A stretch of 64,000 nt of DNA from Hufsiella arboris (lineage in GTDB: Bacteria > Bacteroidota > Bacteroidia > Sphingobacteriales > Sphingobacteriaceae), in assembly GCF_009834875.1 (NCBI RefSeq), contig NZ_WVHT01000004.1:310001-374000 (forward strand). The letters run 5' to 3'. Below the pieces are notes generated by a model. The model searched no databases. It saw nothing but the letters and a program-made list of their open reading frames with translations, and was not told the origin of the DNA. The position numbers and the translations under genes were made by a program. Positions 14,225 to 62,866 of the stretch are shown here, one piece after another (the stretch's first letter is position 1; each line of letters opens with the position of its first letter).

Positions 14225-14261
14225 GTATCACTTGCGGACAAAAAGTGTCCGTTAACGAACA
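14225..14261 (+). promoter_or_regulatory. Putative enhancer pair, module A
   Basis: The inner palindrome TGTCCGTTAACGAACA (14246-14261) matches the TGTTCG-N4-CGAACA type. A partial outer site at 14225-14240 keeps only its right arm, CGGACA. CGGACA (14235-14240) also pairs with TGTCCG (14246-14251) as a perfect inverted repeat. It lies between the divergent regulator and adaptor genes, and so could serve both. Confidence 0.7.
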
Positions 14262-14314
14262 CCGTACACCTTTTAATCACGCTTAAATTAATGAAAACAA
14301 GATATTTAACCGTT

Positions 14315-14330
14315 TGGCATATACTTTACA
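14315..14330 (+). promoter_or_regulatory. Sigma-54-like -24/-12 promoter, module A (adaptor operon)
   Basis: TGGCATATACTTTACA: TGGCA-N6-TTACA, one base from the RpoN consensus TGGCA-N6-TTGCA (A for G in the -12 GC pair). It begins 69 bp after the start of the inner palindrome and ends 36 nt before the adaptor start codon. Confidence 0.65.
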
Positions 14331-14366
14331 TAAGCATTATCAATTGAATTAAATCTAAGATACTAA

Positions 14367-15617
14367 GTGGACAGAATTATTGAAAAGAAGAAATGGACGA
14401 CCAAGCGGATTGCGACAATCGCCGGTATTACGGGGCTTGTTGCTCTTATTGGTGCAAGTTATTTTCTGACATCCGGAAAAAGCAAAGTCAATGTCGACAC
14501 CGAACGCATTACAGTCAGTGAGATCAAACAGGGACCATTTCAGGAATTTATACCATTAAATGGCATTGTTTTGCCCGAAACAACCATATACCTGGATGCC
14601 CAGGAAGGCGGACGGGTTGAAGAAAAATATGTGGAAGACGGGGCAGTTATGAAAAAGGGCGATCCGATTATGCGCCTTTCCAATACCGACCTCGAGCTGA
14701 ACCTGGTTAACCAGGAAACTTCGGTGTTCAACCTGCTGACACAAATGCAAATTTCCCGTAACGCCGCTCAGCAGAATACTATAACAAAGCTGAACCAAAT
14801 GGCAGATGTTGAAAATGCTTACAAAGAAGCGGAACGTCTTTACAATCTGAACAAGAATTTATACGAAAAAAAAGCTATCGGTGCGCAAGAATTTAAGCAA
14901 TCGCAGATAGCATTTGACTACCAGGTAAAACGCAGAAAATTAACCAGGCAAATATTGCAACAGGACTCTGTGTCTACCAAACAAGAACTTGAACAAACAA
15001 AGCAATCGTACAACCGTACGCAAAATGCATTGGCAGTAATGCGTCAAAAAGTGGGCGACCTGGTGGTACGGGCACCGGTTGACGGACAGCTCACTTCCCT
15101 TGACGCTGAGATTGGACAAAACAAAAATAAAGGCGAGCGCCTCGGACAAATCGACGTATTAAGCGGTTATAAGATTCGTGCTGACATTGATGAACATTAT
15201 ATTACCCGTGTTTTTAATGGCTTAATGGCTGATTTTGACCTCGATGATAAAACCTATAAGTTAAAGATTAAAAAAGTGTTCACCCAGGTGAATAATGGCC
15301 GCTTCCAGGTAGACATGGAGTTTACAGGTGAAGTTCCAAAGAAAATTCGCCGCGGCCAAACTCTTCAGGTAAGATTAGCGCTTGGCGATGAAACCCGCGC
15401 ACTTTTACTGCCTAAAGGAGGATTTTATCAGCAGACCGGCGGTAACTGGATATTTAAATTATCGTCAGACGGAAAAACAGCATTTAAAGTAGACATGCAA
15501 CTTGGCCGCCAAAATCCCGACTATTATGAAGTATTACAAGGATTAAAGCCAGGCGACAAGGTTGTGACTTCCAGTTACGAGAACTATGGAGATATGCAGG
15601 AATTGGTTCTGAAATAA
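14367..15617 (+). CDS. HlyD/MacA-family periplasmic adaptor protein
   Basis: A 416-aa membrane-fusion protein with an N-terminal membrane anchor (about 15-34). The first lipoyl half and barrel strand contain VLPETTIYLDAQEGGRVEEKYVEDG. A long alpha-helical hairpin (about 105-235) is rich in Gln, Asn and Lys, then comes the second lipoyl half VVRAPVDGQLTSLDAEIGQ and beta-barrel/membrane-proximal domains (LRPGDK-like GLKPGDKVV near the end). It would link inner-membrane permeases to an outer-membrane channel; no TolC-like gene is in the window. The start is GTG at 14367, the only reasonable start before the anchor. The ATPase gene follows after 71 nt. Confidence 0.92.
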   Translation: MDRIIEKKKWTTKRIATIAGITGLVALIGASYFLTSGKSKVNVDTERITVSEIKQGPFQEFIPLNGIVLPETTIYLDAQEGGRVEEKYVEDGAVMKKGDPIMRLSNTDLELNLVNQETSVFNLLTQMQISRNAAQQNTITKLNQMADVENAYKEAERLYNLNKNLYEKKAIGAQEFKQSQIAFDYQVKRRKLTRQILQQDSVSTKQELEQTKQSYNRTQNALAVMRQKVGDLVVRAPVDGQLTSLDAEIGQNKNKGERLGQIDVLSGYKIRADIDEHYITRVFNGLMADFDLDDKTYKLKIKKVFTQVNNGRFQVDMEFTGEVPKKIRRGQTLQVRLALGDETRALLLPKGGFYQQTGGNWIFKLSSDGKTAFKVDMQLGRQNPDYYEVLQGLKPGDKVVTSSYENYGDMQELVLK

Positions 15618-15649
15618 TAAACGCAATAAATTAAATAAAGATAAACCTA

Positions 15650-15682
15650 GGCTGTTAGCTCATAGCTGAAAGCTCAAAGCTC
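15650..15682 (+). repeat. Short AGCT-rich intergenic repeat before the ATPase gene
   Basis: The gap between adaptor and ATPase genes contains several near copies of the heptamer type TTAGCTC, ATAGCTG, AAAGCTC, AAAGCTC in tandem. The same word family recurs in gaps near 23770-23850 and 53840-53910. Confidence 0.5.
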
Positions 15683-15688: not shown

Positions 15689-16366
15689 ATGATTAAAATA
15701 ACTGATTTACAAAAGTACTACCGTACGGAAGAGGTAGAAACAGTAGCCTTAAACAATGTTTCACTGGAAGTTAAGGAAGGCGAATTCGTTGCCATTATGG
15801 GGCCATCCGGATGTGGCAAATCAACTTTGCTTAACATTTTAGGCTTGCTGGATGATCCGGATGAAGGAAGCTACCTTTTCAATGACATCGAAGTTGCGAA
15901 GTTCAACGAACGCAAGCGCTCTGATTTAAGGAAACACAATATTGGTTTCGTATTTCAAAGTTTTAACCTGATTGACGAGCTGACAGTTTATGAAAACGTG
16001 GAGCTTCCGCTTATCTACACTAAAGTAAGCGCTACAGAACGTAAAAAACGCGTAGAAGAGGTATTGGAGAAAATGCAAATCATGCATCGCCGAAACCACT
16101 TTCCACAGCAGCTATCGGGCGGTCAGCAGCAGCGTGTAGCCGTAGCACGCGCCGTGGTTAATAACCCAAAACTGATACTGGCGGATGAGCCTACAGGAAA
16201 TCTGGACTCGTCAAATGGTAATGAAGTAATGCAGCTATTAACAGAATTAAACGAGGCGGGAACAACCATCGTGATGGTTACTCACTCGGAGCATGATTCA
16301 CGTTACACACACCGTATAATAAGAATGCTCGACGGACAAACCGTAACTGAAAATATTCTCGTTTAA
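15689..16366 (+). CDS. ABC transporter ATP-binding protein, MacB/LolD type
   Basis: A complete 225-aa nucleotide-binding domain: Walker A GPSGCGKST (38-46), Q-loop Q90, signature LSGGQQQR (142-149), Walker B LILADEP (162-168), D-loop NLDS (171-174) and H-loop H199. The GNLDSSNGNEVMQLL stretch and lack of any fused membrane domain are typical of the MacB/LolD/FtsE branch that powers FtsX-like permeases. It is the only ATPase gene in the window and stands directly before 18 permease genes, so it probably serves many or all of them. Confidence 0.97.
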   Translation: MIKITDLQKYYRTEEVETVALNNVSLEVKEGEFVAIMGPSGCGKSTLLNILGLLDDPDEGSYLFNDIEVAKFNERKRSDLRKHNIGFVFQSFNLIDELTVYENVELPLIYTKVSATERKKRVEEVLEKMQIMHRRNHFPQQLSGGQQQRVAVARAVVNNPKLILADEPTGNLDSSNGNEVMQLLTELNEAGTTIVMVTHSEHDSRYTHRIIRMLDGQTVTENILV

Positions 16367-16432
16367 GTTCCTGTCACATGTCACCTTTTGGTGTTGCCGG
16401 CAGTCTTACAACTAAAATTTAATCGCTTAGCC

Positions 16433-18859
16433 ATGATAAAGAATTACATTTTGGTTGCCCTGCGAAATCTTTGGAAGAACAAGGGGTTTTCTGCAATTAA
16501 CATAGTTGGTTTGGCTGTTGGCCTTGCTACCTGCCTGATTATTACCTTGTACGTGATCGACGAACTTAGTTACGATCGCTACAATGAAAAAACAGACAGT
16601 ATTTACCGTATAGACGCCGACATCCGGTTCGGAGGCAACAACATGAAGCTTGCTGTTTCTTCCGATCCGATGGGGTCGACATTAAAAAGAGATTTTCCGC
16701 AGGTCGAACAATTTGTGCGATTTCGCGGTTACGGCGGCTTCCAGGTTAAAAAGGCGAATGAAAACCTACGTGAAGATCGCGTTATCTACACCGATCCAAC
16801 AATTTTTGACGTCTTTACGCTTCCATTTATCGAAGGCAATCCTAAAACCGCTCTGGTTGAACCGCATACGGTAGTTATTACTGAAAAAACTGCCCGCAAA
16901 TATTTCAACAGTGCATCAGGCGTTGTTGGTAAGACGTTAACGGTTAACGACACGAGTAATTACAAAGTAACGGGAGTGATTCAAAATATTCCGTCCCGTT
17001 CGCATTTTAATTTCGACTTTTTTGTATCGCTTGCCGAATCCAGTGAGGCGCGGGCCAACAACTGGGTGAGCCACAATTTCAACACATATATTGTGCTCAA
17101 GCCTGGCTCCGATCCGAAGTTGCTGGAAGCCCAGTTCGGCAAAGTGATCGACAAATACATCGGGCCCCAGGTTAAGGATCTTATGAACATTAATATGGAT
17201 GAGTTTAAGAAAAGCGGCAACTATATCAGCTACAGCCTTACACCACTCTCCACGATCCATTTACACTCAAATAAAACCGCCGAGCTCGATGCTAATGGCA
17301 ATATCCAATACGTATACATCTTTTCTGCGATAGCGCTCTTCATTCTTCTGATCGCCTGCGTTAACTTCATGAATCTTTCAACCGCAAGATCGGCTAACCG
17401 GGCACGGGAAGTTGGGGTACGTAAAGTATTAGGTTCTTTGAAAAGTAATCTGATTACCCAATTTTTAACTGAATCTGTTTTACTTAGCTTTTTTGCACTT
17501 GTTCTGGCTCTGATTATCGCATGGCTGTTTTTGCCATTTTTCAATCAGCTCGCGTTCAAGGAGATCAGTTTTAACTTATTTGCGCAGCCCTGGATGCTTC
17601 CTTTGATTATGGTAATCATCGTAATCATCGGGTTGCTTGCGGGAAGTTATCCGGCCTTCTATTTATCCGCATTTAACCCGATCCAGGTTTTAAAAGGTAA
17701 GCTATCTGGTGGCTTCAAAAAAAGCTGGCTTCGCAGCGGCCTGGTAGTTTTCCAGTTTGCCATCTCGATCTTCCTCATCGTTGGAACGGTGGTGATTTAT
17801 AGCCAGCTAAGCTATATGCGCAACAAAGATCTCGGTTTTAACAGAAAACAGATTTTAATCATTCAAAATACCGATGCACTCGGTTCTGCCGCAGGATCTT
17901 TTAAAAATGATTTATTAAAGTTGGCAGGTGTCGAACATGCAACCATGACGGGCTACCTGCCAACCGGCGGCTGGCGAAGTGATAATCCACTGTTCCCAGA
18001 CGCATCCCTTGATCAGAAACGGGCTGTTTCAACTCAAACCTGGAGAGTTGACGAAGATTATATTCCAACATTGGGAATGAAAATGGTGAAAGGCCGAAAT
18101 TTCTCTAAAAAATATTTAACGGATTCTTCAGGCATTATAATAAATGAATCAGCGGCAAAACTTTTGAATTTCAAAGATCCTATTAATCAAACTTTGTATA
18201 CCCTTGAGGATATCAAAACCAAAAAGCTGATGCAGTATAAAATCATCGGCGTGGTGAAGGATTTTAATTTCAACTCGCTCCGCGAGCAGGTTACACCGCT
18301 GGCTTTTCTTCTTGAGGAACAACGCAACAGCGTCGCTATTCAAATCAAAACGTCGAATATTTCCGGCCTTATCGCACAGATCGAACGAAAGTTTAAAGAG
18401 ATTGCTCCTTCGCAGTCTTTTACTTACTCATTTATGGACGATGATTTCAATAATATTTACAATAATGAGCAACGTATTGGAAAAATATCCGTCACTTTCT
18501 CGGTGCTTGCTATTTTGATCGCCTGTCTTGGCTTATTCGGACTTGCTTCTTATGCTGCCGAACAACGGGTTAAAGAAATTGGGATCAGAAAGGTGTTAGG
18601 TGCCACCGTTGTAAATATTACAGAAATGCTTTCAAAGGATTTTTTAACACTGGTAATTATCGCCGCAGTCATCGCCTTTCCATTTGCCTGGCTGGCAATG
18701 AATAGCTGGTTGCAGGATTTTCAATATCGCATCACGATAAGCTGGTGGATATTCGCCGCAGCTGGAATTACAGCTCTATTTATTGCCCTGTTTACAGTTA
18801 GCTTCCAGGCAATTAAAGCGGCAATAGCAAATCCGATAAAAAGTTTAAGAACGGAGTAA
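16433..18859 (+). CDS. MacB-like double-FtsX ABC permease (perm1)
   Basis: An 808-aa permease used here as the reference for the array. TM1 at about 20-42, periplasmic MacB_PCD domain to about 290, TM2 295-315, TM3 348-370, TM4 387-410, TM5 436-460, second periplasmic domain to about 685, TM6 687-710, TM7 739-760, TM8 771-795. Cytoplasmic coupling helices follow TM2 (AREVGVRKVLGSL) and TM6 (VKEIGIRKVLGAT). It has no ATPase domain, unlike true MacB. The frame opens at 16388, but MIKNYILVALRN at 16433 matches all siblings and is the start. Closest relative in the array is perm15 (shared GNIQYVYIF and NW-x-S-x-N region). Ends NPIKSLRTE. Confidence 0.93.
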   Translation: MIKNYILVALRNLWKNKGFSAINIVGLAVGLATCLIITLYVIDELSYDRYNEKTDSIYRIDADIRFGGNNMKLAVSSDPMGSTLKRDFPQVEQFVRFRGYGGFQVKKANENLREDRVIYTDPTIFDVFTLPFIEGNPKTALVEPHTVVITEKTARKYFNSASGVVGKTLTVNDTSNYKVTGVIQNIPSRSHFNFDFFVSLAESSEARANNWVSHNFNTYIVLKPGSDPKLLEAQFGKVIDKYIGPQVKDLMNINMDEFKKSGNYISYSLTPLSTIHLHSNKTAELDANGNIQYVYIFSAIALFILLIACVNFMNLSTARSANRAREVGVRKVLGSLKSNLITQFLTESVLLSFFALVLALIIAWLFLPFFNQLAFKEISFNLFAQPWMLPLIMVIIVIIGLLAGSYPAFYLSAFNPIQVLKGKLSGGFKKSWLRSGLVVFQFAISIFLIVGTVVIYSQLSYMRNKDLGFNRKQILIIQNTDALGSAAGSFKNDLLKLAGVEHATMTGYLPTGGWRSDNPLFPDASLDQKRAVSTQTWRVDEDYIPTLGMKMVKGRNFSKKYLTDSSGIIINESAAKLLNFKDPINQTLYTLEDIKTKKLMQYKIIGVVKDFNFNSLREQVTPLAFLLEEQRNSVAIQIKTSNISGLIAQIERKFKEIAPSQSFTYSFMDDDFNNIYNNEQRIGKISVTFSVLAILIACLGLFGLASYAAEQRVKEIGIRKVLGATVVNITEMLSKDFLTLVIIAAVIAFPFAWLAMNSWLQDFQYRITISWWIFAAAGITALFIALFTVSFQAIKAAIANPIKSLRTE

Positions 18860-18942
18860 CGGTGCTGCCGGAAGCCAAGTACCAGTCAGGCATACAATTA
18901 ATTGCAACCTAAAAGCGAAAGCTTGGATAATTCAAAATCGTC

Positions 18943-21330
18943 ATGATTAAAAACCTTTTCCTCGTAGCTCTTCGAAATCTCAAACGAGATAAATGGTATG
19001 GGTTGCTTAATATTCTGGGATTAACCATTGGCATTACATTTAGCCTGTTCCTGATTTTTTATATTAAAGATGAACTGAGTTACGATCGTTATCATAAAAA
19101 TGCAGACCGCATTTACCGGATAGCGTCTTACAATAAAGAGCCTGACAAACCTGAAATGAAATGGGCTGTTACGCCAGCCTCCATGGCTCCAGCTTTAAAA
19201 AGAGATTATCCGGAAGTTGACCAATCGCTTCGCATGTTGGGAACAGGAAAAACAATGTTTAAAAATGGCGACCTCCGGTTTTATGAAGACGCTATTTTTT
19301 TATGTGACAGCAATATCTTTAAAGTATTCAGTTATAATTTCATTGAGGGAAATCCAAATTCGGCGCTTATCGAACCTCATTCGATGGTTTTGACACAATC
19401 CAGTGCAGAGAAATTCTTCGGCAGGTCGACCGGTATTATAGGAAAGACCTTGCAGAATAACCGAGGCGAAATTTTCAAGATCACCGGCGTTATAAAAGAC
19501 GTCCCGAAAAACTCACATCTTGTTTTTAACGCGCTTATTTCAATAAGTACCTTACCAAAAGACTTTGACCAGAACTGGGGAAATTTTGGTATTTATACCT
19601 ACGTTCTACTCAAGCCCAATGTTAGTCCGGCCTTGTTTCAGCAAAAACTTGCCCCTCTTTATAAAAAATACCTGGAAGCGATTTTTGCTCCTTCCAATAT
19701 CAAAATTCGTTTTGTTTCTCAGCCGCTTACTTCCATTCATTTGCACTCAGACCTTGAGTTTGAGCCCAGCGAACTGGGAAGTATGTCATACATCTACATT
19801 TTCGCGGCAGTTGCTTTTTTTATGTTATTGATCGCATGCATCAACTACATGAACCTCACAACCGCGCGTTCGGCCCGTCGTGCCAAGGAAATCGGAATCA
19901 GGAAAGTAACAGGCTCATCGAAACTTCAGCTGGTAACACAATTTCTCGTTGAGTCGTTACTAACAGCTGTTTTTGCGCTCATTTTAAGTCTTGGATTAAT
20001 TGCAATTCTGCTCCACACATTTAATTCCGTAGCAGGTAAATTCATCACGTTTCAATCACTTTTTGAGCCGGGAACTTTTTTAATTTTGTTAGCTGTTGTA
20101 TTGTTTGTCGGTCTGGCGGGCGGATGTTATCCTGCATTCTATCTTTCCAAATTTAACCCGGTAAACATTTTAAAAGGCAGCCTTTCGAAAAGCTCCAGCA
20201 ATGCCACGCTTCGCCGGTCGCTTGTTGTTGTTCAGTTTTCCGTATCGATGATCATGTTGATTTGCACATGGATCGTTTACGGTCAATTGAAGTATCTCCG
20301 AAACAAAGATCTCGGTTTTAATAATCAGCAGGTTTTGAAACTGTCGGTTAATTCGGATCGCGACAATCGGGGCCAAATCCACGCCTTTACCAATGAACTA
20401 AAGAAGAATCCAAAAATCCTTTCAGTAAGCACCTCTGAGAGTATGCCGGGAGGGAAATACATTAACTTCAACTTGCTCTCCGTACAAACGGAAACAGGTT
20501 TTAAAAACCAGGGAATTGACTGTTATGGAATTGATGAACGATTCTTCCCAACATTGGGAATGAAGCTTAAGGAAGGCCGAAACTTTTCTGGCCTGGCTGA
20601 CACGCTCAGAAGCGTGATCGTTAACGAAAACATGGTAAAGTTTTTTGGCTGGAAGAATGCTATTGGAAAAAAAGTAAAATATCCCGGCGATACATCGAGT
20701 TTCTACCTCGAGGTTGTCGGCGTAGTAAAGGACTTCAACCAAAAATCTCTGTACAATCCAATTGCACCGTTGCTAATGTTTTATCGGCCGAACAGTCCGA
20801 GAATTCAGTTAAAGTTGTCATCGCAGGATCTCCCTTCGACATTAAAAAACATAGAAAAGATCTGGAAATCCAGTTTCCCTGGCCTGCCATTTTCGTACAG
20901 TTTCCTCGACGAAGATTTTGACTCGCAATATATAGCCGACCAGAAAAGAGGTAAAATATTTACCGCGTTTTCCATACTTACCATCATCATAACTTGTCTT
21001 GGATTATTAGGATTGGTCGCGTTTACAACTGAACAGCGTCAAAAAGAAATCAGCATCAGAAAAGTAATGGGCGCAGGTGTCAGCGAAATTGTACCGCTGA
21101 TAACAACCAACTTTATTTTGCTCGTGGGTATTTCCTGCTTTATTGCATTCCCGGTAGCATACGTCTTCATGGATAAATGGCTTAAGATATTTCCATACAA
21201 TACTGGTTTAAATGTCACGCCTTTTATTTTATCAGCAATTACGGTCCTGTTTATAACACTTTTTACTGTAATATTTCATACGGTAAAGGCGGCATTAAAT
21301 AACCCGGTAAAAAGTTTAAGAACGGAGTAA
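18943..21330 (+). CDS. MacB-like double-FtsX ABC permease (perm2)
   Basis: 795 aa, starting MIKNLFLVALRN, 83 nt after perm1. Its coupling motifs are AKEIGIRKVTGSS and QKEISIRKVMGAG; the second carries S where the siblings have G. The first periplasmic domain shares the pattern SxxLPKDFxxNWGxFxxYTYxLLK and LTSIHLHSDL with perm17, its best match. TM4 reads GLAGGCYPAFYLS, with Cys at a position that is Ser in most copies. Ends NPVKSLRTE. Middle gene of the first transcription unit. Confidence 0.92.
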   Translation: MIKNLFLVALRNLKRDKWYGLLNILGLTIGITFSLFLIFYIKDELSYDRYHKNADRIYRIASYNKEPDKPEMKWAVTPASMAPALKRDYPEVDQSLRMLGTGKTMFKNGDLRFYEDAIFLCDSNIFKVFSYNFIEGNPNSALIEPHSMVLTQSSAEKFFGRSTGIIGKTLQNNRGEIFKITGVIKDVPKNSHLVFNALISISTLPKDFDQNWGNFGIYTYVLLKPNVSPALFQQKLAPLYKKYLEAIFAPSNIKIRFVSQPLTSIHLHSDLEFEPSELGSMSYIYIFAAVAFFMLLIACINYMNLTTARSARRAKEIGIRKVTGSSKLQLVTQFLVESLLTAVFALILSLGLIAILLHTFNSVAGKFITFQSLFEPGTFLILLAVVLFVGLAGGCYPAFYLSKFNPVNILKGSLSKSSSNATLRRSLVVVQFSVSMIMLICTWIVYGQLKYLRNKDLGFNNQQVLKLSVNSDRDNRGQIHAFTNELKKNPKILSVSTSESMPGGKYINFNLLSVQTETGFKNQGIDCYGIDERFFPTLGMKLKEGRNFSGLADTLRSVIVNENMVKFFGWKNAIGKKVKYPGDTSSFYLEVVGVVKDFNQKSLYNPIAPLLMFYRPNSPRIQLKLSSQDLPSTLKNIEKIWKSSFPGLPFSYSFLDEDFDSQYIADQKRGKIFTAFSILTIIITCLGLLGLVAFTTEQRQKEISIRKVMGAGVSEIVPLITTNFILLVGISCFIAFPVAYVFMDKWLKIFPYNTGLNVTPFILSAITVLFITLFTVIFHTVKAALNNPVKSLRTE

Positions 21331-21346
21331 AATAGGTATCGGTTAC

Positions 21347-21399
21347 AGATTTCAGGTATCAGCCAGTACCTGCAGCCTGAAACCCGTTACCTGAAATCT
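21347..21399 (+). repeat. Inverted repeat in perm2-perm3 gap
   Basis: AGATTTCAGGTA (21347-21358) and TACCTGAAATCT (21388-21399) are perfect 12-bp inverted copies around a 29-nt loop that itself holds GTACCTG and CCTGAAAC. No T-run follows, so it is not a standard terminator. It belongs to the GGTATC/CAGGTA word family seen in other gaps. Confidence 0.7.
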
Positions 21400-21408
21400 A
21401 AAAAACCA

Positions 21409-23766
21409 ATGATCAGAAACTATTTAAAAATCGCGTGGCGTAACCTTCTTAGAAACAAAGGCTTTTCATTAATCAACATAGCCGGCTTAGCTATCGGCAT
21501 GGCAAGCGCCATCCTGATTTTACTGTGGATACAAAATGAGATAAGTTACGATCAGTTTCACACCAAGAAAGACCGCTTGTATGTAATGTACAACCGCTCA
21601 GTTTTTGATGGCAAGCTCTGGTGCTGGCAATCCACACCAAAAATCATGGGTCCAACCATGAAAATGAGCTATTCGCAAGTTGAAGAAACATCAAGGATTA
21701 ACCAGGCTACATTCCTGTTTACAGTCGGAGAAAAACATCTGACGGTCCGCGGTGCTTTTACCGATCCCGGATTTTTAACCATGTTCAGCTTTCCGTTGAT
21801 TAACGGAGATTCAAAAACGGCCTTAAAAAACACTCAAACCGTAGTAATCACAGAAAAATTGTCAAAAAAGCTTTTCGGAAATGACAACGCGATGGGCAAA
21901 ACTGTGAAGATCGACAGCAACGCTTATTTCACCGTAACAGGTGTCATGAAGGATCAACCTAACAATACCCGTTTCCAGGACTTCGAGTATTTCATGCCAT
22001 GGAGTTACATGAAGAAAATTGGCTGGGATGAAAATAACTGGGGAAATAATTCAGTTCAAACTTATGTATTGTTAAAACCCGGAGTAACCGAAACCGCGGC
22101 AAACAAAGCATTTTTAAATATCACTCGTACCCACTCAGACATAAAAGATATCGATCAATTCGTTCACCCGATCAGTAAATGGAGACTGTATTCCAAGTTT
22201 GAAAACGGCAAAATAACAGGTGGGCGAATAGAAATCGTCCGGTTGTTCTCGGTTATTGCAATATTCATTTTATTGATAGCCTGTATAAATTTCATGAATT
22301 TGAGTACAGCCCGGAGTGAAAAACGGGCTCGTGAAGTTGGCATCCGTAAAGTTGTAGGCGCTCAAAAAGGTTCACTGGTGGGCCAGTTTTTAGGCGAGTC
22401 TATTATCATTTCATTAATCTCCGGAATTATTGCGTTAGTTGTTGTTCAGCTGAGCTTAAAAGGTTTTAACGCCTTAACTGATAAAGAACTATTTATCCCA
22501 TATTCCAGCTTATTTTTTTGGCTGATAAGCCTGGGCTTTGTATTATTTACCGGTATTGTAGCAGGGAGCTATCCTGCTTTTTACTTATCATCATACAGGC
22601 CGGTAAAGGTATTAAAGGGAACCTTTAAAGCAGCTCATGCGCTGGTTACTCCAAGAAAGGTGTTGGTAATCCTGCAATTCACATTCGCCATTGCGCTGAT
22701 CATTTGCACCATCATTATTCAGCGACAAATCAACCACGCCCAACAGCGTGACCTTGGATATAACAAGAATAACCTGGCTTATGTATTTATGACTGGTGAA
22801 GTCGAAAAACATTATACCGCTATAAAGAATGAGATGCTGGCAAGCAACGCTGTTACGGCTGTCACAAAAACCAGCGCACCGATGACCGAAGGCTGGAGTG
22901 ATAGCTGGGATTACAGCTGGAAGGGCAAAAACACAACAGAAAAGCTTGATTTCGACATCTACAATACAGATGGAGATTTTGTCAAGACGATGGGTCTAAA
23001 ACTGGTTACAGGCAGGGATATTGACCTTAAAGCCTTCCCCAGCGATTCGACCGCGATGATCTTAAACGAAGCCGCGGTAAAAACAATGGGCTTTAAGAAC
23101 GCGATCGGCCAGATAGTGAAAGGCCAGGGCCGCGACTGGCATGTTGTTGGTGTAATCAAAGATTTTATCCTTTCGTCACCTTACGAGCCGGTTAAACAAA
23201 TGGTTATCCAAGGCCCATCCGGTTGGTTTAACGTGATCCATTTCAAATTAAACGACAATGCCTCAACAGAAAATAACCTGAAAAAAATCGAAGCTGTATT
23301 CAAGAAATATAATCCTGATTACCCGTTTGAATATAATTTCATTGATGAGGCATATTCCAAAAAATTCCGCGACGAGCAGCGCATTGGAACACTCGCCGCG
23401 CTTTTCGCAGGGCTTACGATCGTGATTTCATGCCTTGGATTATTTGCTTTAGCGGCGTACATGGCAGAAAATCGGATCAAGGAAATTGGAGTACGGAAAG
23501 TTCTGGGTGCATCAGTTTCCGGGCTGGCGGTTTTACTTTCTAAAGATTTCCTTAAGCTGGTTCTGATTTCATTCGCAATTGCTTCACCGATAGCCTGGTG
23601 GGCAATGCATAAATGGCTTCAGGATTACACATACCGGGTTAGTATAAGCTGGTGGATATTTGCCATAACGGGAATCATATCGATGGCGATCGCGGTGGCA
23701 ACGGTTAGCTTCCAGGCGCTGCGTGCAGCAAGAGCTAATCCTGTAAAGAACTTAAGAACAGAGTAA
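21409..23766 (+). CDS. MacB-like double-FtsX ABC permease (perm3)
   Basis: 785 aa, MIRNYLKIAWRN start, 78 nt after perm2. Coupling motifs AREVGIRKVVGAQ and IKEIGVRKVLGAS. The first periplasmic domain is Trp-rich (KLWCWQSTPKIMG) and contains the WGNNSVQTYVLLKPG block shared with perm14; the KWRLYSKFENGK stretch links it to perm5, perm6, perm10 and perm11. Second-domain landmark SWDYSWKGK. C-terminal tail is the variant NPVKNLRTE. Confidence 0.92.
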   Translation: MIRNYLKIAWRNLLRNKGFSLINIAGLAIGMASAILILLWIQNEISYDQFHTKKDRLYVMYNRSVFDGKLWCWQSTPKIMGPTMKMSYSQVEETSRINQATFLFTVGEKHLTVRGAFTDPGFLTMFSFPLINGDSKTALKNTQTVVITEKLSKKLFGNDNAMGKTVKIDSNAYFTVTGVMKDQPNNTRFQDFEYFMPWSYMKKIGWDENNWGNNSVQTYVLLKPGVTETAANKAFLNITRTHSDIKDIDQFVHPISKWRLYSKFENGKITGGRIEIVRLFSVIAIFILLIACINFMNLSTARSEKRAREVGIRKVVGAQKGSLVGQFLGESIIISLISGIIALVVVQLSLKGFNALTDKELFIPYSSLFFWLISLGFVLFTGIVAGSYPAFYLSSYRPVKVLKGTFKAAHALVTPRKVLVILQFTFAIALIICTIIIQRQINHAQQRDLGYNKNNLAYVFMTGEVEKHYTAIKNEMLASNAVTAVTKTSAPMTEGWSDSWDYSWKGKNTTEKLDFDIYNTDGDFVKTMGLKLVTGRDIDLKAFPSDSTAMILNEAAVKTMGFKNAIGQIVKGQGRDWHVVGVIKDFILSSPYEPVKQMVIQGPSGWFNVIHFKLNDNASTENNLKKIEAVFKKYNPDYPFEYNFIDEAYSKKFRDEQRIGTLAALFAGLTIVISCLGLFALAAYMAENRIKEIGVRKVLGASVSGLAVLLSKDFLKLVLISFAIASPIAWWAMHKWLQDYTYRVSISWWIFAITGIISMAIAVATVSFQALRAARANPVKNLRTE

Positions 23767-23812
23767 ACGAGCTGTCAGAAATCAGCTAACGACACATATA
23801 AATGTATTATAC

Positions 23813-23832
23813 AACGGCGGAAAGCCGCCGTT
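23813..23832 (+). repeat. GC-rich hairpin in perm3-perm4 gap
   Basis: AACGGCGG and CCGCCGTT are perfect 8-bp arms around the tetraloop AAAG. It is flanked by AGCT-rich words (GAGCTGTCAG, CAGCTAAAAGC). No T-run follows. It lies 20 nt before the perm4 start and could affect mRNA stability or initiation. Confidence 0.7.
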
Positions 23833-26231: not shown

Positions 26232-26235
26232 AATA

Positions 26236-53818: not shown

Positions 53819-54052
53819 AAAGTTGTCATAAATCAGTTATTAGCTTTTAAACTCCTGTTTAATGTATTATATAAAAGCTTAAGCTGATGGCACAAGCTGA
53901 AAGCTAAAGACCATGCAACCTTTTTTAACATGCATGCGTCTATTAGATTTAGAGTTGAACATGCCATCAATAACTATTAAAAGAAACTAAATTTTCAAAC
54001 CCTATAGAGCTTAAAAACGGGATAAACCGTGCACCAATTAATATTCAGTCAC
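53819..54052 (+). other. Gap between perm15 and the beta-helix-like gene
   Basis: 234 nt. It holds AGCT-rich words (AAAGCTTAAGCTG, CAAGCTGAAAGCTAAAG at 53875-53909) of the same family as at 15650, and the string AATGTATTATA also present in the perm3-perm4 gap. A 25-codon frame at 53913-53990 (MQPFLTCMRLL...) is not supported by anything else. I see no enhancer pair and no sigma-54-like element here. Confidence 0.4.
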
Positions 54053-55090
54053 ATGAAACCATCAAAACTTATTTTAACATTCATTCTCACTGCGAGTTCA
54101 GTGGCACTGTTACGCGCGCAAAGTAACGAATCGCCATACCTGACCAAATCGCTGACTTCTGAAAACATTAAAAATGTAAATCTTGAAACCAGCGGCGGCA
54201 GTTTACTTGTTGCCGGAGGTGACACGAACCCTCGCATCGAAGTTTACGTGCGAGGCAACAACAATAAGAACCTTTCAAAATCGGAAATTGAGTCGCTGTT
54301 AAATGAATATTACGACCTGAAAGTCGAAGCCAGCGGCGGCACCTTAAATGCCAAGGCAAAGACGAAGAAAAACATGAACAACTGGAAAAATTCTGTTTCC
54401 ATTTCGTTCAAAGCATATGTACCTAAAAATGTATCGACAAATCTGACCACTTCAGGAGGAAGCATCCGTCTGTCAAATTTAACAGGGGAACAAAACTTTA
54501 CCACGAGCGGTGGCAGCCTGCATGTAAGTCAGTTAACCGGGGATATCAAAGGACAAACCTCTGGCGGAAGCATCCAGATAGAAGATTCCAAAGACAAAAT
54601 CGAACTAGCTACCAGCGGCGGCAGTATTAGGGCATCGGGCTGTGAAGGAACTATCGAACTGAACACTTCTGGAGGTTCGCTAAATTTTTCGGATTTGAAG
54701 GGAACGATAAAAGCAGTGACCAGCGGAGGAAGCGTCCAGGGAACAGACATTTCAGGTGAATTGATTACTCATACTTCCGGTGGTTCTATCAACCTCGACC
54801 GCATTTCAGGCAGCCTGGACGCAGCAACTAGCGCAGGGAGTGCTCATGTTAACATGTTATCTGTCGACAAATATGTAAAAGTAGATGTTAGTTCGGGACA
54901 TGCAGATATTCAACTGCCAGGCTCAAAAGGTCTGAACCTGAATTTAAGCGCACAAAAAGTTAATGCAGACAACCTGACGAACTTTAGCGGGACAAAAGAA
55001 AAAGACCGGATTAACGGTAAACTAAACGGCGGCGGTGCAGACGTTGATGTGCGGGTTTCATCGGGAAATATTAACCTGGTAGTAAAATAG
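54053..55090 (+). CDS. Secreted beta-helix-like protein with 18-residue TSGGS repeats (DUF4097-type)
   Basis: 345 aa. Signal peptide MKPSKLILTFILTASSVALLRAQ, then an irregular region with two isolated copies (TSGGS at 46, ASGGT at 93). From residue 131 an exact 18-residue ladder of TSGGS-centred units follows: 131, 149, 167, 185, 203, 221, 239, then a degenerate copy at 257 and looser coils (VSSGHADIQL, VSSGNINLVVK). This fits a parallel beta-helix of the DUF4097 / auto-transporter head type found in Bacteroidota. The frame opens at a GTG at 54029, but ATG at 54053 gives the proper signal peptide. Position inside the module C unit suggests surface or periplasmic work linked to the exporters, unproven. 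Confidence 0.85.
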   Translation: MKPSKLILTFILTASSVALLRAQSNESPYLTKSLTSENIKNVNLETSGGSLLVAGGDTNPRIEVYVRGNNNKNLSKSEIESLLNEYYDLKVEASGGTLNAKAKTKKNMNNWKNSVSISFKAYVPKNVSTNLTTSGGSIRLSNLTGEQNFTTSGGSLHVSQLTGDIKGQTSGGSIQIEDSKDKIELATSGGSIRASGCEGTIELNTSGGSLNFSDLKGTIKAVTSGGSVQGTDISGELITHTSGGSINLDRISGSLDAATSAGSAHVNMLSVDKYVKVDVSSGHADIQLPGSKGLNLNLSAQKVNADNLTNFSGTKEKDRINGKLNGGGADVDVRVSSGNINLVVK

Positions 55091-55119: not shown

Positions 55120-55156
55120 CGTTCGTTTCTGAACGAATGCTGTTCGATAACGAACA
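55120..55156 (+). promoter_or_regulatory. Putative enhancer pair, module D
   Basis: Outer CGTTCGTTTCTGAACG (55120-55135) and inner TGTTCGATAACGAACA (55141-55156, perfect 6-bp arms), starts 21 bp apart. It begins 30 nt after the beta-helix gene stop. Confidence 0.8.
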
Positions 55157-55166
55157 CCAAATAAAT

Positions 55167-55203
55167 AAAAAAACAGCTTCCGACCGCTTGGAAGCTGTTT
55201 TTT
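55167..55203 (+). terminator. Strong terminator placed inside module D
   Basis: AAAACAGCTTCC pairs with GGAAGCTGTTTT around an 8-nt loop, A-run before and six T after, usable in both directions. It lies between the enhancer pair and the -24/-12 element, so read-through from the perm15 unit stops before the perm16 promoter. Confidence 0.88.
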
Positions 55204-55208
55204 ATTAA

Positions 55209-55224
55209 TGGCATTTTATCTGTA
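55209..55224 (+). promoter_or_regulatory. Sigma-54-like -24/-12 promoter, module D (perm16)
   Basis: TGGCATTTTATCTGTA, starting 68 bp after the inner palindrome start. The -12 end is only 11 nt before the perm16 start codon, so initiation near +1 would give an almost leaderless mRNA. Confidence 0.65.
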
Positions 55225-55235: not shown

Positions 55236-57656
55236 ATGCTTAGAAATTATCTTCTTCTTGCTTTTAGAAACATCCGTAAAAATAAACTGCACGCTATAAT
55301 CAACGTTGGAGGAATGGCTGTTGCGTTCACCTGCAGCATTTTCATATTCCTGCTTGTATACCGGCATTTTTCCTATGACGAGTTCCAGAAAAACGGGAAT
55401 CAGCTTTTCAAAGTTTACAGCTACTCTATAGGACCTAATGGCGAAGAGAAAGGCACCTCTATGGCTTTCCCTTTTGTTGAGGCGGTCAAAAAAGAGAATA
55501 TCGGCATTGTAAAAGCAACAAGTATACATAACCGAGGCAAGCTGGTGCGATACAAAGAAAAAACACTTGACATGACTGTTACCATGGTCGACAATGATTT
55601 TTTCGACATGTTTACTTTTCCTTTGATTAAAGGAAACAATGTAAATCCGTTAAGCGATCTTAACAGTGTGGTAATTGCTGAGAAGTTTGCCCACAATTTA
55701 TTCGGAGAAGAAGATCCGTTAGGGAAATCTATTGACGTTAAGTTAGGCGGAAAATGGTATAGCCTGACGGTATCGGCAGTCGCTGCCGAACCTCCGAAAA
55801 ATTCGTCCATTAGATTCTCCGTTCTGGCGCGTACCGAAATAGATCCGGATTACCCTTTGCAAAAAAACAACTGGAACAATCGAAGCCTGCCCGTATTTGT
55901 TGAACTTGCACAAACCACAACTGATCAAAAGGTTGAGAGCAGATTACGTGCTTTTACAAACAAATATACCCCAACAGACAAAGCTTCATACAAAAAAGAC
56001 GGCTATAAAGCCGATAAAAACGGTGATTACCACAGTTTCCGTTTGCTGCCGTTGTCTGAGTTACATTTTAGTCCGCAACTAGGTGGCGGCGGTACTATCA
56101 GTAAGCCGTTTCTCTATATTTTGATTCTCATCAGTGCGGTCATCCTGCTGATTGCATCGTTTAATTTCGTTAACCTGAATATTGGATTGTCATTTACCAG
56201 GACAAAGGAAATTGGTGTACGGAAATGCCTTGGAGCTGCAAAAAAACAAATATGGCTGCAGGTTTGGGGCGAAAGCTTCTTGCTAGTAATAATCGCGACC
56301 CTGCTGGCCATGACGGCGGTTTACCTGGCCATTCGCAGCTTCAATAATATTACAGACGGTGCGATAGATTCTAATTTGTTATTCAGTCCGACAATCGTTG
56401 GAACTGTATTATTACTAACCGTTTTGGTTTCGGTAATCGCTTCAGGTTATCCATCCGCCGTAATGGCTAAATTAAAAACAACCGAAGTACTCAAAGGAAA
56501 AATATCTGCTAACCGGTCTGGTGGATTACGAAACGCCCTGATAGTTACTCAATTTACAATTGCTGTAATTTTGATAGGCAGCACCATCATTATTTACCGG
56601 CAGTTTGATCACCTACGAACTGCGCCACTCGGATACAATACCACATCTATCATAAGTATTCCTATAAAAAACGAAGAAAACGGGAAAGAAATAATTAACA
56701 AGCTTAGGGGCAGACTCGCTTCCCAGTCTTCAGTTATCAGCGTATCGGGATCTAACACCAATTTAGGCATTGGCCAGGATAAAACCCAAAGTACCAGCGT
56801 TATGTGCTTTGATTTAGGCGATAAAAAGATCTGCGGCCAGGTCATTACCGGTGATTTTGACATGCTTAAAACCCTGGGAATCAAACCGGTTGAAGGTCAT
56901 GATTTCTTGTTAAGTTCTGCTTCCGATACCAGTAACTCGGTTATTCTTAGTGAAAGTTACGCGAAGCAATTTGGCAGAAAGAGTATGGCCGATTTTAGTT
57001 ATGCGACAGATACCGCCCAGGCCAAAGTGCGTGTTGCCGGTGTGATACCCGATTTTCATTTCACTTCAGTTAATGATACGCCGCAACCGCTTGTGATTTA
57101 CCGGAATAACGAAACGACAATGAACTATGCATGGATACGGGTAAACACATCAAACCCAAGCGCTACAATGAATATGGTTAAATCAGTGTATGCTTCTGTT
57201 GAGCCTGGCGTTGAGTTTAACGGCTCTTATGTAAATGAGAATATTGAACGCTTATATGAAGATGAACAAACAATGGCCAGGTTGTTTTCTGTTGCCGCAG
57301 GAATTGCAATCGTGCTTTCGTGCATGGGACTGTTTGGAATCGCCTCTATTACCATTAGGCAGCGCGTGAAAGAAATTGGCGTACGAAAAGTTCTGGGCGC
57401 TTCCGTTAGTGCTATTGTTACACTGGTAAGCAGGGAATTTATCAAACCTGTTTTAATCGCATTTTTAATAGCCATACCTATCGATTGGTGGATGATGAAT
57501 AAATGGTTGCAGGATTATTCCTACCGCACAGATATAAACTGGTGGATATTTGGACTAGCTGCGGTTGTATCAGTTGCGATAGCCTTAATCACCGTGAGTT
57601 TCCATGCCATTAAGGCGGCCATAGCAAACCCGGTCGAAAGTTTAAGAACGGAATAA
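55236..57656 (+). CDS. MacB-like double-FtsX ABC permease (perm16)
   Basis: 806 aa, start MLRNYLLLAFRN. With perm18 it forms a separate subfamily: TM1 is followed by a HFSYDEFQ segment, an inserted basic stretch KASYKKDGYKADKNGDYHSF precedes LLPLSELHF, and TM2 ends NFVNLNIGLSFTR where others have NLSTARS. Coupling motifs TKEIGVRKCLGAA and VKEIGVRKVLGAS. Second domain landmark SGSNTNLGIGQDKTQ; two Cys in SVMCFDLGDKKICGQ are unusual for the array. Tail variant NPVESLRTE. It appears to be transcribed alone, between two terminators. Confidence 0.92.
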   Translation: MLRNYLLLAFRNIRKNKLHAIINVGGMAVAFTCSIFIFLLVYRHFSYDEFQKNGNQLFKVYSYSIGPNGEEKGTSMAFPFVEAVKKENIGIVKATSIHNRGKLVRYKEKTLDMTVTMVDNDFFDMFTFPLIKGNNVNPLSDLNSVVIAEKFAHNLFGEEDPLGKSIDVKLGGKWYSLTVSAVAAEPPKNSSIRFSVLARTEIDPDYPLQKNNWNNRSLPVFVELAQTTTDQKVESRLRAFTNKYTPTDKASYKKDGYKADKNGDYHSFRLLPLSELHFSPQLGGGGTISKPFLYILILISAVILLIASFNFVNLNIGLSFTRTKEIGVRKCLGAAKKQIWLQVWGESFLLVIIATLLAMTAVYLAIRSFNNITDGAIDSNLLFSPTIVGTVLLLTVLVSVIASGYPSAVMAKLKTTEVLKGKISANRSGGLRNALIVTQFTIAVILIGSTIIIYRQFDHLRTAPLGYNTTSIISIPIKNEENGKEIINKLRGRLASQSSVISVSGSNTNLGIGQDKTQSTSVMCFDLGDKKICGQVITGDFDMLKTLGIKPVEGHDFLLSSASDTSNSVILSESYAKQFGRKSMADFSYATDTAQAKVRVAGVIPDFHFTSVNDTPQPLVIYRNNETTMNYAWIRVNTSNPSATMNMVKSVYASVEPGVEFNGSYVNENIERLYEDEQTMARLFSVAAGIAIVLSCMGLFGIASITIRQRVKEIGVRKVLGASVSAIVTLVSREFIKPVLIAFLIAIPIDWWMMNKWLQDYSYRTDINWWIFGLAAVVSVAIALITVSFHAIKAAIANPVESLRTE

Positions 57657-60178: not shown

Positions 60179-60215
60179 CGTTCGCTTTTGAACGTTGTTT
60201 GTTCGATAACGAACA
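60179..60215 (+). promoter_or_regulatory. Putative enhancer pair, module E
   Basis: Outer CGTTCGCTTTTGAACG (60179-60194) and inner TGTTCGATAACGAACA (60200-60215, perfect arms and identical to modules D and F), starts 21 bp apart. Confidence 0.8.
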
Positions 60216-60266
60216 GTTTAAATAAAGAATATCCCTTTAGCCTAACAGGAAGGACTTTCTTTGAAA

Positions 60267-60282
60267 TGGCACTTTATCTGCA
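60267..60282 (+). promoter_or_regulatory. Sigma-54-like -24/-12 promoter, module E (perm17)
   Basis: TGGCACTTTATCTGCA: canonical GG-N10-GC and the best match to the RpoN consensus in the window (TGGCAC present). It starts 67 bp after the inner palindrome start and ends 25 nt before the perm17 start codon. Confidence 0.78.
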
Positions 60283-60307: not shown

Positions 60308-62701
60308 ATGTTTCTGAATTATCTTAAAATCGCCTGGCGAAATATGCTGAAGAACAGATTTTATTCTGTTCTGAATATTTCCGGGCTGGCAATCGGAATA
60401 ACAGCCTTTCTGTTTATTACGATTTATGTAGCGGATGAACTAAGTTATGACCGTTACCATGACAACGCTTCGCGGATTTACCGCATAGCACAGCATGGCA
60501 GCTGGGATGGCGGCAATTTTGATATCACAGGAACTTCAGCGCCGTTCGCGGAAGCTTTAAAACGTGATAACCCGGAAGTAGAAGATGCCGTAAGGTTTGA
60601 TGTCGAGGGCGGGGGCACGGTAAGCTATGGCGACAAGCATTTACAGGTAAACGATATTTCATTTGCCGATGCTTCCGTTTTTAATGTATTTACTTATCGC
60701 TTTTTATCCGGCGATCCGAAAACAGCCCTGGCAAGACCTGCATCAATTGTTATTACCCGTACACTCGCAGAGAATTTATTTGGCAGCGCGGCGGCAGCCA
60801 TCAACAAATCCGTGAGTTTTGGCCCTGATGAACAAAATCTTGTTACCGGCGTCATAGCAGATGTCCCCGAGAATTCGCATTTCAGATTTAGTGCACTCCG
60901 CTCCTTTCCGGCAAATTTCACTGAGGACTGGGGATATTTTCACTTGTACACCTATATCCTTTTAAAGAAAAACGCCGATATCCACCACCTTGAACAAAAA
61001 TTGCCGCAGTTCTACAATAAATATTTAAAAGACCTTGGAAAAGGAACGTCGAGTTTCAAATACCGGATGGAACTGCAGCCGCTAACTTCCATCCATCTGC
61101 ATTCCAACCTTGGATATGAGTTGAGCTCAAACGGTAGCATGAAATATATTTACTCCTTTTCACTTATAGCGCTGCTAATCCTCATCATTGCGTCCATCAA
61201 TTATATAAATCTTGCTACCGCGAGATCATATACCAGGGTGAAAGAAATTGCGGTCAGAAAGGTTAACGGATCCGGGAGAAGCCAGCTCATTGCAATGTTT
61301 TTAAGCGAATCTGTGCTGTTTGTTTTAGGCGCCTCGGCCATGGCAATAGTAGCAATGTACTTGGCCGCTCCGATTTATACGCAACTAACGGATAAGCGGC
61401 CTGATTTCAATCAATTGCTTACCCTAAAAAACATTGTAGTCTTTGTTTTATTCATCTGCGCAACCGGAATTATTACCGGCTTATACCCGGCGCTATTCTT
61501 CTCCTCTTTTAAAACTATTAATGCCCTCAAGGGTGAAATGGGAAATAAGTCGGGTGGCAATGTATTTCGCAGGTCATTAATAATTGTTCAATTCACTATT
61601 TCAATTTGTATGATCGTTGGTTCAATGATCATTTATCGTCAGCTTAATTTTATCCAGAATAAAAATCTCGGTTTTAACAAAAATCAGGTATTAACCATTC
61701 ATCTTGAGAACCGGGATCTTCGAAACAGGGTGAATGAACTTCGGAATAAGTTGTTACAAAATCCTGATGTACAACAGGTGGCAACCGCCGGGAACCCAAT
61801 CGGGAATAACGACATCGGCGGCACCGAATACAAAACGCAAACGGATAACAACTCGGCAGCGATCGGACATCTGGCTAAAGCGTTCACCATCGATGAAGAT
61901 TTTATTCCAGCGTTGCAAATTAAGCTGGCGGAAGGTCGAAACTTTTCAAAAGACATGCCGACTGACTCGAGCTTGTCGGTAATTGTGAATGAAACACTTG
62001 TTAAAGAATCAGGATGGAATACAGGAATTGGCAAGAAAATTCAATTAGGCGATGCACATTCGCCGTTCGTAAACATAATAGGCGTGACAAAAGATTTTAA
62101 CATTTTCTCACTGCAGCACAAAATTGAGCCGCTGATTTTAACGTTACCAAGGCAACAAAGAGAAAAGGACAATCTATATATCCGGATTAGCAATCAGCAC
62201 GTCGGATCTTCATTAAAATATATCGAAAATGTGTTCAAAGGATTTGACAATCAACATCCGTTTATTTATCATTTCCTGGACGAAAATTTCGCAAAACAAT
62301 ATAAAGCCGAACAAAAACAGGGTTTTCTCTTAACGCTTTTTACATTGATCTCGGTAGTTATATCATGCCTTGGTTTATTGGGATTAGTAACGTTCAATAT
62401 CTACCAGCGCACAAAAGAAATCGGTATCCGTAAGGTTTTGGGAGCTAATGTAACAGACGTTGTAAAAATGTTGTCTGTAGAATTTATAAAGCTGGTAACG
62501 GTATCTTTTATAATCGCGGTACCGATTTCGTGGTGGGCCATGAATAACTGGCTCCAGGATTTTGCATACCGGGTCAACATCAGTTGGTGGATCTTTGCTT
62601 TGGCAGGAATGCTGGCGGTGTTTATTGCGTTTGCCACCGTCAGTTTCCAAGCTATTAAAGCGGCCTTAGCCAATCCGGTTAGGAGTCTGAGGACGGAGTA
62701 A
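60308..62701 (+). CDS. MacB-like double-FtsX ABC permease (perm17)
   Basis: 797 aa, start MFLNYLKIAWRN. Closest to perm2: SFPANFTEDWGYFHLYTYILLK, LTSIHLHSNLGYELSSNGSMKYIY and the NYINLATARS end of TM2 line up. Coupling motifs VKEIAVRKVNGSG (A in place of G, N in place of V/L/I) and TKEIGIRKVLGAN. Second domain landmark TAGNPIGNNDIGGTEYKTQ. The tail is the variant NPVRSLRTE. Flanked by modules E and F, so probably transcribed as a single gene. Confidence 0.93.
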   Translation: MFLNYLKIAWRNMLKNRFYSVLNISGLAIGITAFLFITIYVADELSYDRYHDNASRIYRIAQHGSWDGGNFDITGTSAPFAEALKRDNPEVEDAVRFDVEGGGTVSYGDKHLQVNDISFADASVFNVFTYRFLSGDPKTALARPASIVITRTLAENLFGSAAAAINKSVSFGPDEQNLVTGVIADVPENSHFRFSALRSFPANFTEDWGYFHLYTYILLKKNADIHHLEQKLPQFYNKYLKDLGKGTSSFKYRMELQPLTSIHLHSNLGYELSSNGSMKYIYSFSLIALLILIIASINYINLATARSYTRVKEIAVRKVNGSGRSQLIAMFLSESVLFVLGASAMAIVAMYLAAPIYTQLTDKRPDFNQLLTLKNIVVFVLFICATGIITGLYPALFFSSFKTINALKGEMGNKSGGNVFRRSLIIVQFTISICMIVGSMIIYRQLNFIQNKNLGFNKNQVLTIHLENRDLRNRVNELRNKLLQNPDVQQVATAGNPIGNNDIGGTEYKTQTDNNSAAIGHLAKAFTIDEDFIPALQIKLAEGRNFSKDMPTDSSLSVIVNETLVKESGWNTGIGKKIQLGDAHSPFVNIIGVTKDFNIFSLQHKIEPLILTLPRQQREKDNLYIRISNQHVGSSLKYIENVFKGFDNQHPFIYHFLDENFAKQYKAEQKQGFLLTLFTLISVVISCLGLLGLVTFNIYQRTKEIGIRKVLGANVTDVVKMLSVEFIKLVTVSFIIAVPISWWAMNNWLQDFAYRVNISWWIFALAGMLAVFIAFATVSFQAIKAALANPVRSLRTE

Positions 62702-62706
62702 ACCAG

Positions 62707-62749
62707 AGCTGTCAGCGTTATAAAACAAGCTATTTTAACGCTGACAGCT
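62707..62749 (+). repeat. Perfect 14-bp inverted repeat after perm17
   Basis: AGCTGTCAGCGTTA (62707-62720) and TAACGCTGACAGCT (62736-62749), 15-nt loop. No T-run follows, so termination is uncertain. The word GCTGTCAGCGTT also occurs just upstream of module D (55105-55116). Confidence 0.8.
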
Positions 62750-62761
62750 ATCGCTAAACCT

Positions 62762-62798
62762 CGTTCGTTTTTGAACGATTTCTGTTCGATAACGAACA
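62762..62798 (+). promoter_or_regulatory. Putative enhancer pair, module F
   Basis: Outer CGTTCGTTTTTGAACG (62762-62777) and inner TGTTCGATAACGAACA (62783-62798), starts 21 bp apart. Confidence 0.8.
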
Positions 62799-62850
62799 CC
62801 CGAAAAACCAGAAAAGCCCTCTACCATCTTAAAAAAGGCCTTTTTCAGTA

Positions 62851-62866
62851 TGGCATCTGTTCTGCA
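62851..62866 (+). promoter_or_regulatory. Sigma-54-like -24/-12 promoter, module F (perm18)
   Basis: TGGCATCTGTTCTGCA: canonical GG-N10-GC. It starts 68 bp after the inner palindrome start. Confidence 0.75.

Follow-up and report, generated by a model that had tools for sequence, protein, structure and literature searches.

A predicted sigma-54 regulon of copied enhancer-promoter cassettes in a DarBCD/ADOP-like exporter array of Hufsiella arboris

Results

Genes of the exporter array

The window, that is, the whole stretch of 64,000 nucleotides of Hufsiella arboris DNA that was analysed, carries genes for a sensor histidine kinase and an NtrC-type response regulator, which are divergent from an adaptor gene, ABC ATPase 1 and a same-strand run of permease genes (Table 1). 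The array extends about 16 kb past the window. Beyond the window, unit F holds five permeases and a 616-aa MsbA-like ABC protein (under the NCBIfam cut-off), and is followed by a further module (module G), a second small ATPase (ATPase 2) and a TolC-type protein (PF02321). In total the array has 22 permease loci, of which 21 are intact and one is split. The permeases tested with Pfam are about 800 aa long, with two MacB_PCD and two FtsX stretches (PF12704+PF02687). The MacAB-type tripartite set is thus complete, with adaptor (PF13437), ATPase (PF00005), MacB/FtsX permease and TolC-type channel (PF02321). In the array the ATPases are encoded by separate genes, unlike in MacB, where one protein joins an ATPase to a single permease domain.

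Table 1. Features of the window, with the basis of each assignment or the positions of its parts.
Feature	Position	Strand	Basis or details
Sensor histidine kinase	11452..12786	-	HATPase_c; hydropathic segments 9-28 and 34-51
NtrC-type response regulator	12776..14128	-	receiver PF00072, sigma-54 activator AAA+ PF00158 (223 bits), Fis HTH PF02954
Module A	14224..14330	+	outer site 14224-14240 (17 bp), inner site 14246-14261, promoter TGGCATATACTTTACA 14315-14330
HlyD-type periplasmic adaptor (DarC-like)	14367..15617	+	Pfam PF13437, NCBIfam
ABC ATPase 1 (DarD/LolD-like)	15689..16366	+	PF00005, NCBIfam
Unit A: seven duplicated MacB/FtsX permease genes	16388..33505	+	ORFs, similarity to array permeases; Pfam for the first, 16388-18859
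Module B	33585..33688	+	outer site 33585-33600, inner site 33606-33621, promoter 33673-33688
Unit B: seven permease loci	33845..51165	+	ORFs, Pfam, similarity to array permeases
Module C	51226..51331	+	outer site 51226-51241, inner site 51247-51262, promoter 51316-51331
Unit C: permease (51410-53818) and DUF4097 / weakly LiaG-like protein (54029-55090)	51410..55090	+	
Module D	55120..55224	+	outer site 55120-55135, inner site 55141-55156, promoter 55209-55224
Terminator-like hairpin	55168..55203	.	between enhancer and promoter of module D; 14-pair stem, -20.8 kcal/mol, z -7.3
Unit D permease	55236..57656	+	ORF, similarity
Module E	60179..60282	+	outer site 60179-60194, inner site 60200-60215, promoter 60267-60282
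Unit E permease	60308..62701	+	ORF
Module F	62762..62866	+	outer site 62762-62777, inner site 62783-62798, promoter 62851-62866
Unit F start	63022..64000	+	continues past the window (L053)

Some irregularities are seen within the run. The last permease of unit B is split into two overlapping ORFs (48783-49391 and 49360-51165), through a frameshift or a sequencing error. A gap of 315 bp in unit B (38656-38970) has no module and contains a 76-aa lipoprotein-like ORF (38723-38953), which was overlooked at a 100-aa ORF cut-off. The gap in unit C (53819-54028) has neither a module nor a forward ORF of at least 30 aa. Between units D and E, the same-strand run is interrupted by a glycoside hydrolase family 2 gene on the reverse strand (57740-59968).

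Enhancer-promoter modules within the array

Modules A to F each consist of an outer and an inner palindromic site followed by a promoter element. Re-reading of the sequence gave exactly the starts of inner palindrome and promoter named in the original prediction, and the distances between them (69, 67, 69, 68, 67 and 68 bp in A to F) fall in the range of 67-69 bp that it had given. The start-to-start spacing of 21 bp that it claimed for the two palindromes holds in B to F and fails in A, where a 17-bp outer site starts 22 bp before the inner one; this form is common among relatives. Relative to TGTTCG-N4-CGAACA, the inner sites of D, E and F have no mismatch, both sites of B and C and the inner site of A have one or two, and at the outer position A, D, E and F give no match even when two mismatches are allowed.

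Ten such palindromes are found in the window compared with 2.25 expected, two of them outside the modules, and a count of ten was reached in 1 of 100 shuffles. The excess of lone palindromes in the window is modest, and the signal therefore resides in the combination. A scan of the whole 4.80-Mb genome with the combined exact pattern CGAACA-N40-65-TGGCA-N6-YTRYA, a form of the check proposed with the original prediction, gave six forward matches rather than hundreds, all of them modules A to F and hence in the exporter array, with no reverse matches and one match for the reversed-pattern control.

Module D is the only one with a significant terminator-like hairpin between enhancer and promoter; none was found in the corresponding spacers of A, B, C, E and F. 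The hairpin would suit an element that terminates unit C and is bypassed by DNA looping.

Regulator, kinase and rpoN

NtrC-type activators of sigma-54 regulons act from pairs of enhancer sites that precede GG-N10-GC promoters. When dimers of the phosphorylated activator occupy two such sites, spaced by about two turns of the helix, they nucleate an AAA+ ring, which remodels the sigma-54 polymerase via DNA looping. That an NtrC-type gene lies at the head of the locus was confirmed with Pfam, which finds the receiver, the sigma-54 activator domain and the Fis-type HTH. The activator domain carries the loop motif GAFTDA, a GAFTGA-type loop, and relatives of the regulator with solved structures include the NtrC-family entries 4l4u and 1ny5. 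In an excerpt of PMC4641369, GAFTDA is among the D. vulgaris loop variants expected to retain activation.

The prediction depended on the presence of an rpoN gene, and a single one was found in the genome (C54:35556-36032; PF04552, 191 bits), with the RpoN box ARRTVAKYRE. Strong sigma-54 activator domains number nine in the same genome. By hydropathy, the kinase has two TM helices with a joint of about five residues, without a large outside domain. In ten sampled kinase orthologs, hydrophobic segments (several merged into overlapping stretches) are likewise seen only near the N-terminus and leave no space for an outside domain.

Co-occurrence of module, regulator and permeases

Of 29 relatives (gene content was mapped for some), 21 have a module upstream of their regulator ortholog, with two sites of the types TGTATCATAACCGTACA and TGTAACAGAAGCGTACG and TGGCA 51-54 bp further on. 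An exact motif scan of 201 genomes was rejected as background, with matches in 78 genomes, mostly one or two each, and a reversed-pattern control of similar size. Since 17-bp sites are frequent in relatives, the exact scan was replaced by R1, a sequence-only model built from 24 modules (six own and 18 from relatives) with the inner spacer masked, the training sites of which adjoin the regulator or are own modules. R1 matches on the reverse strand within a module mirror its palindromes and were excluded from the counts.

At E up to 0.01, R1 matches 109 of the 201 family genomes. Of the 93 genomes that have a regulator ortholog at 61-100%, 89 have a match (the misses are G075, G136, G146 and G159), or 70 of 74 when the 19 training genomes are removed. 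The same holds for 18 of 30 genomes with a regulator ortholog of about 50%, and for 2 of 78 genomes with neither ortholog class (G015 and G044). MacB-type candidates, which are a rough first-look domain count rather than genes and of which at most 14 per genome were scored, reach 10 or more in 122 of the 123 regulator-bearing genomes and in 1 of the 78 others. They separate regulator-positive from regulator-negative genomes in 12 of the 13 genera holding both, the exception being the genus of G015. This genome has 60 permease candidates and three R1 matches, yet no close regulator ortholog. G001, which is in the same genus as the window, is without a close ortholog or an R1 match and has 6 MacB candidates versus 60. 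In G092, a close regulator ortholog is present (C3:58653-60002) along with 15 R1 matches genome-wide; R1 has no match in the 100 kb around the regulator, and no array is found in 60 kb on the adaptor side. In this genome the array may be located away from the regulator.

Gene context of modules in relatives

The same array ends, with the adaptor and ATPase 1 at one and ATPase 2 and the TolC-type gene at the other, are found in G035, G071, G167, G176 and G164. These five relatives have 26 R1 matches, one of which is a mirror image. Each of the other 25 lies near the called start of a same-strand gene for an adaptor, a permease or ATPase 2, at most 118 bp before it or 22 bp past it; one of them, in G071, is partial and spans the two sites, its promoter having been read separately.

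A further set of 47 ortholog loci comes from Mucilaginibacter, Pedobacter, Sphingobacterium, Olivibacter, Parapedobacter, Daejeonella, Hufsiella, Pontibacter, Chitinophagaceae MAGs and others; it is not independent of the 201-genome set, as some records are in both (for example L178 and G025). In 41 of these loci an R1 match ends between -80 and +130 bp relative to the start of a gene for an adaptor, a TolC-type protein or a permease, and the other six (L192, L193, L194, L202, L214 and L216) have no fitting match. In three Sphingobacterium loci (L224 8486-8654, L200 8479-8644 and L210 8440-8612), R1 matches both ways from one palindrome pair, with the sites located between divergent adaptor and TolC-regulator-kinase genes. 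These pairs may fire both ways.

The sites of D, E and F are near-identical to each other and the array permeases are clearly paralogous, as would be expected if the modules were alike solely through recent duplication of permeases together with their upstream regions, most of the copies being no longer functional. However, the own array permeases reach only about 33-41% identity with the closest of four query permeases (queries themselves excluded), the enhancer-promoter spacers differ in sequence while sites and spacing are preserved, and modules recur at the adaptor and ATPase 2 in the five relatives. Recent copying is therefore a very improbable explanation.

Other modules in the genome and a paralogous regulator

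Module G (C34:387334-387432) lies 78 bp before ATPase 2 and scores 18.6 bits in a local R1 search. The whole-genome R1 search of the own genome returned A to F together with three modules outside the array (H, I and J), mirror matches and a short weak match at C53:21907. It did not return G, and whole-genome R1 searches thus miss sites. Modules H (C12:3199-3303, 32 bits) and I (C56, L058:6957-6863, minus strand, 23.7 bits) are each directly before a stand-alone permease of about 800 aa. Module J (C54:179380-179476, minus strand, 22.3 bits) precedes an ORF readable as a 76-aa membrane protein from GTG, and is possibly a non-exporter target of the same regulator. The six transcription units originally predicted are consequently too few, as the array itself has at least seven modules and similar ones are found elsewhere in the genome.

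Six other permease loci of the genome (L054, L055, L056, L060, L061 and L063) have no R1 match at E up to 1. Two further matches were not accepted as modules: that at L057 (13.1 bits, model positions 30-104), and that at L062, which is on the strand opposite to the permease gene. L062 (G000:C53:18000-30000) encodes, at 4006-7467, a 1153-aa protein in which an AraC-type HTH (232-313) stands before a complete duplicated permease (359-1153); it is possibly a membrane-bound regulator-permease fusion.

The genome also has a paralogous regulator (C34:97320-98669) that is 43% identical to the window regulator, also with a GAFTDA loop, and with a similar recognition helix (LGITRSSLYRRLDKY in the paralog versus LGITRTALYRRLNKY in the window regulator). 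It belongs to an exporter operon with genes for HlyD-type and TolC-type proteins, an ATPase, two short permeases, the regulator and a kinase. In L055 (G000:C34:90000-103000), this operon is preceded, at 1310-1413, by TGTCCG-N4-CGGACA, 67 bp before the promoter-like TGGTATATCACTTGCA. The palindrome has a weaker companion, TGCCCG-N5-AGGGCA, 20 bp upstream. The similar palindrome at the same 67-bp promoter distance, the GAFTDA loop and the similar recognition helix make cross-control by the paralog possible.

The modules might then be real sigma-54 cassettes that another NtrC-type regulator occupies in full or in part, the main candidate being this paralog, which heads a MacB-type exporter operon; the genome has nine strong activator domains in all. 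On the other hand, the paralog's own sites are 20 bp apart versus 21-22 bp and are not detected by R1, the presence of modules tracks orthologs of the window regulator across the 201 genomes, and in many genomes a module lies upstream of that ortholog. Binding by another regulator thus appears unlikely. As to the predicted control of several exporter units by one NtrC-type regulator through RpoN promoters, rpoN, the regulator domains, the co-occurrence in 201 genomes and the location of modules before exporter genes all agree with it, whereas, given the paralog, this regulator may not be the only one acting on the modules.

Geometry and promoter element across 77 modules

Geometry was described for 77 modules: nine own, 25 from relatives, and 43 of 81 matches from the set of 47 ortholog loci. 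The 38 matches left out were mirror images, partial matches, close duplicates and, by choice, some full-length ones. As the R1 model and the extraction pattern favour such values, the spacings are a description rather than a test: right half-sites are 21 bp apart in 39 modules, 22 bp in 37 and 23 bp in one, and 76 modules have 51-54 bp between the inner site and TGGYA. In the 77th, own module I, the promoter was mis-picked (gap 62), and a TGGTA element is visible in the R1 model alignment. The 17-bp form of the site is found at the outer position in 42 modules and at the inner position in 29, and the 16-bp form in 35 and 48, respectively. Inverted-repeat pairs at a fixed distance upstream, as for enhancers, are thus found.

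The invariance of TGGYA is not counted as evidence, as the extraction demanded it. Promoter position 11 is T in 75 of the 77 modules, which the extraction did not demand and the R1 model favours. T predominates in the -12 region, where 26 modules have G at position 14 and 11 have C at position 15 (one promoter being mis-picked). GG-N10-GC is exact in E, F and G, B, C and D have GG-N10-GT, and A has AC in place of GC. The -12 part of the RpoN-type promoters originally proposed is thus looser than a strict GC.

This weak -12 conservation could also be accommodated if the palindromes were repressor operators or sites of a second activator, with TGGYA-N6 not a sigma-54 promoter and ordinary Bacteroidota promoters nearby. 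A scan of 31001-64000 gave E. coli-type sigma-70 matches only at chance level; the consensus is that of E. coli, leaving room for a Bacteroidota-type promoter. However, the constant 51-54 bp gap (partly built in by the model), the T at position 11 (model-favoured), the linked NtrC-type activator and the presence of rpoN argue against this explanation, which is considered improbable.

Discussion

A model for the regulation of the array

Taken together, the sequence data point, with a probability of roughly 0.85, to one sigma-54 regulon of an NtrC-type two-component system, in which copied enhancer-promoter cassettes run a DarBCD/ADOP-like exporter array. The switches of the array are most likely worked by the single sensor-regulator pair at its head. 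We infer that the window regulator binds the modules, that their promoters depend on sigma-54 and that the units are induced together, and likewise that the ATPases and adaptor are common to the permeases, that the system exports, and that it answers a signal.

In the proposed mechanism, the two-component system (11452-14128) would sense a probably envelope-related signal, and the phosphorylated regulator would bind the paired palindromes, one dimer to each, about two helical turns apart. An AAA+ ring would assemble on the pair and contact RpoN-polymerase at TGGYA 51-54 bp further on. Copies of the cassette would split the array, with its one adaptor, two small ATPases, one TolC-type channel and 22 permease loci, into at least seven co-regulated units, so that permeases could be added or moved under common control.

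If so, the array offers a testable regulator, binding code and target list for a large Bacteroidota exporter expansion of duplicated permeases, and a single regulator deletion or constitutive mutant should switch about 20 permeases together. The modules also provide a regular natural series of sigma-54 cassettes for geometry studies (sites 21-22 bp apart, gap 51-54 bp), including module D with a hairpin in the loop and pairs that may fire both ways.

Kinases of Bce systems have two TM helices and almost no outside loop, and LiaG is part of the LiaFSR envelope-stress operon. The short-loop kinase and the LiaG-like protein of the array hint at envelope sensing, as in these systems. A more speculative and rather doubtful extension is that the portable cassette puts newly gained permeases under one short-loop (intramembrane-type) kinase, to which the permeases report substrate load. 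Such an arrangement would be a sigma-54 counterpart, in a Gram-negative bacterium, of the flux sensing of Bce systems, with one sensor, adaptor and channel common to many permeases that differ in substrate.

Relation to known systems

No description of the window regulator, the paired-site code or the cassette array was found in one open-licence library, as judged from titles and abstract openings. The parts are familiar and it is the assembly for which no description was found. With NtrC/sigma-54 regulons, the locus shares a receiver-AAA+-HTH regulator, rpoN, upstream inverted-repeat pairs and TGGCA-type promoters; it differs in that one cassette is repeated across a single exporter array, in the loose -12 region and in the GAFTDA loop. 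A general link between sigma-54 and permeases is already in print, as excerpts of PMC12316311 report that sigma-54 promoters are predicted to be enriched before COG0577 antimicrobial-peptide-type ABC permeases in Bacteroidia. That work is at the COG level, and in these excerpts no regulator, enhancer pair or array is named for COG0577 permeases.

By gene, the array is like the darobactin exporter DarBCD and the duplicated permeases known as ADOP. The adaptor, ATPase 1 and the permease at 33845-36226 match the NCBIfam models over nearly their full length, all under the curated cut-offs (DarC 174 bits, cut-off 450; DarD 294.5, cut-off 375; DarB 131.6, cut-off 700). The same permease, the one array permease tested, matches ADOP (TIGR03434) over its full length with 320.3 bits against a cut-off of 622.3. 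Unlike in those systems, 22 permease loci are found here with two small ATPases and one adaptor. The unit C protein matches LiaG with 62.1 bits, far under the cut-off of 285. The array resembles Bce-type antimicrobial-peptide modules (PMC10314905) in the linkage of FtsX-type permeases to a kinase, here one with two TM helices and a minimal outside loop. It differs from them in its NtrC/sigma-54 output, adaptor, TolC-type channel and MacB core domains.
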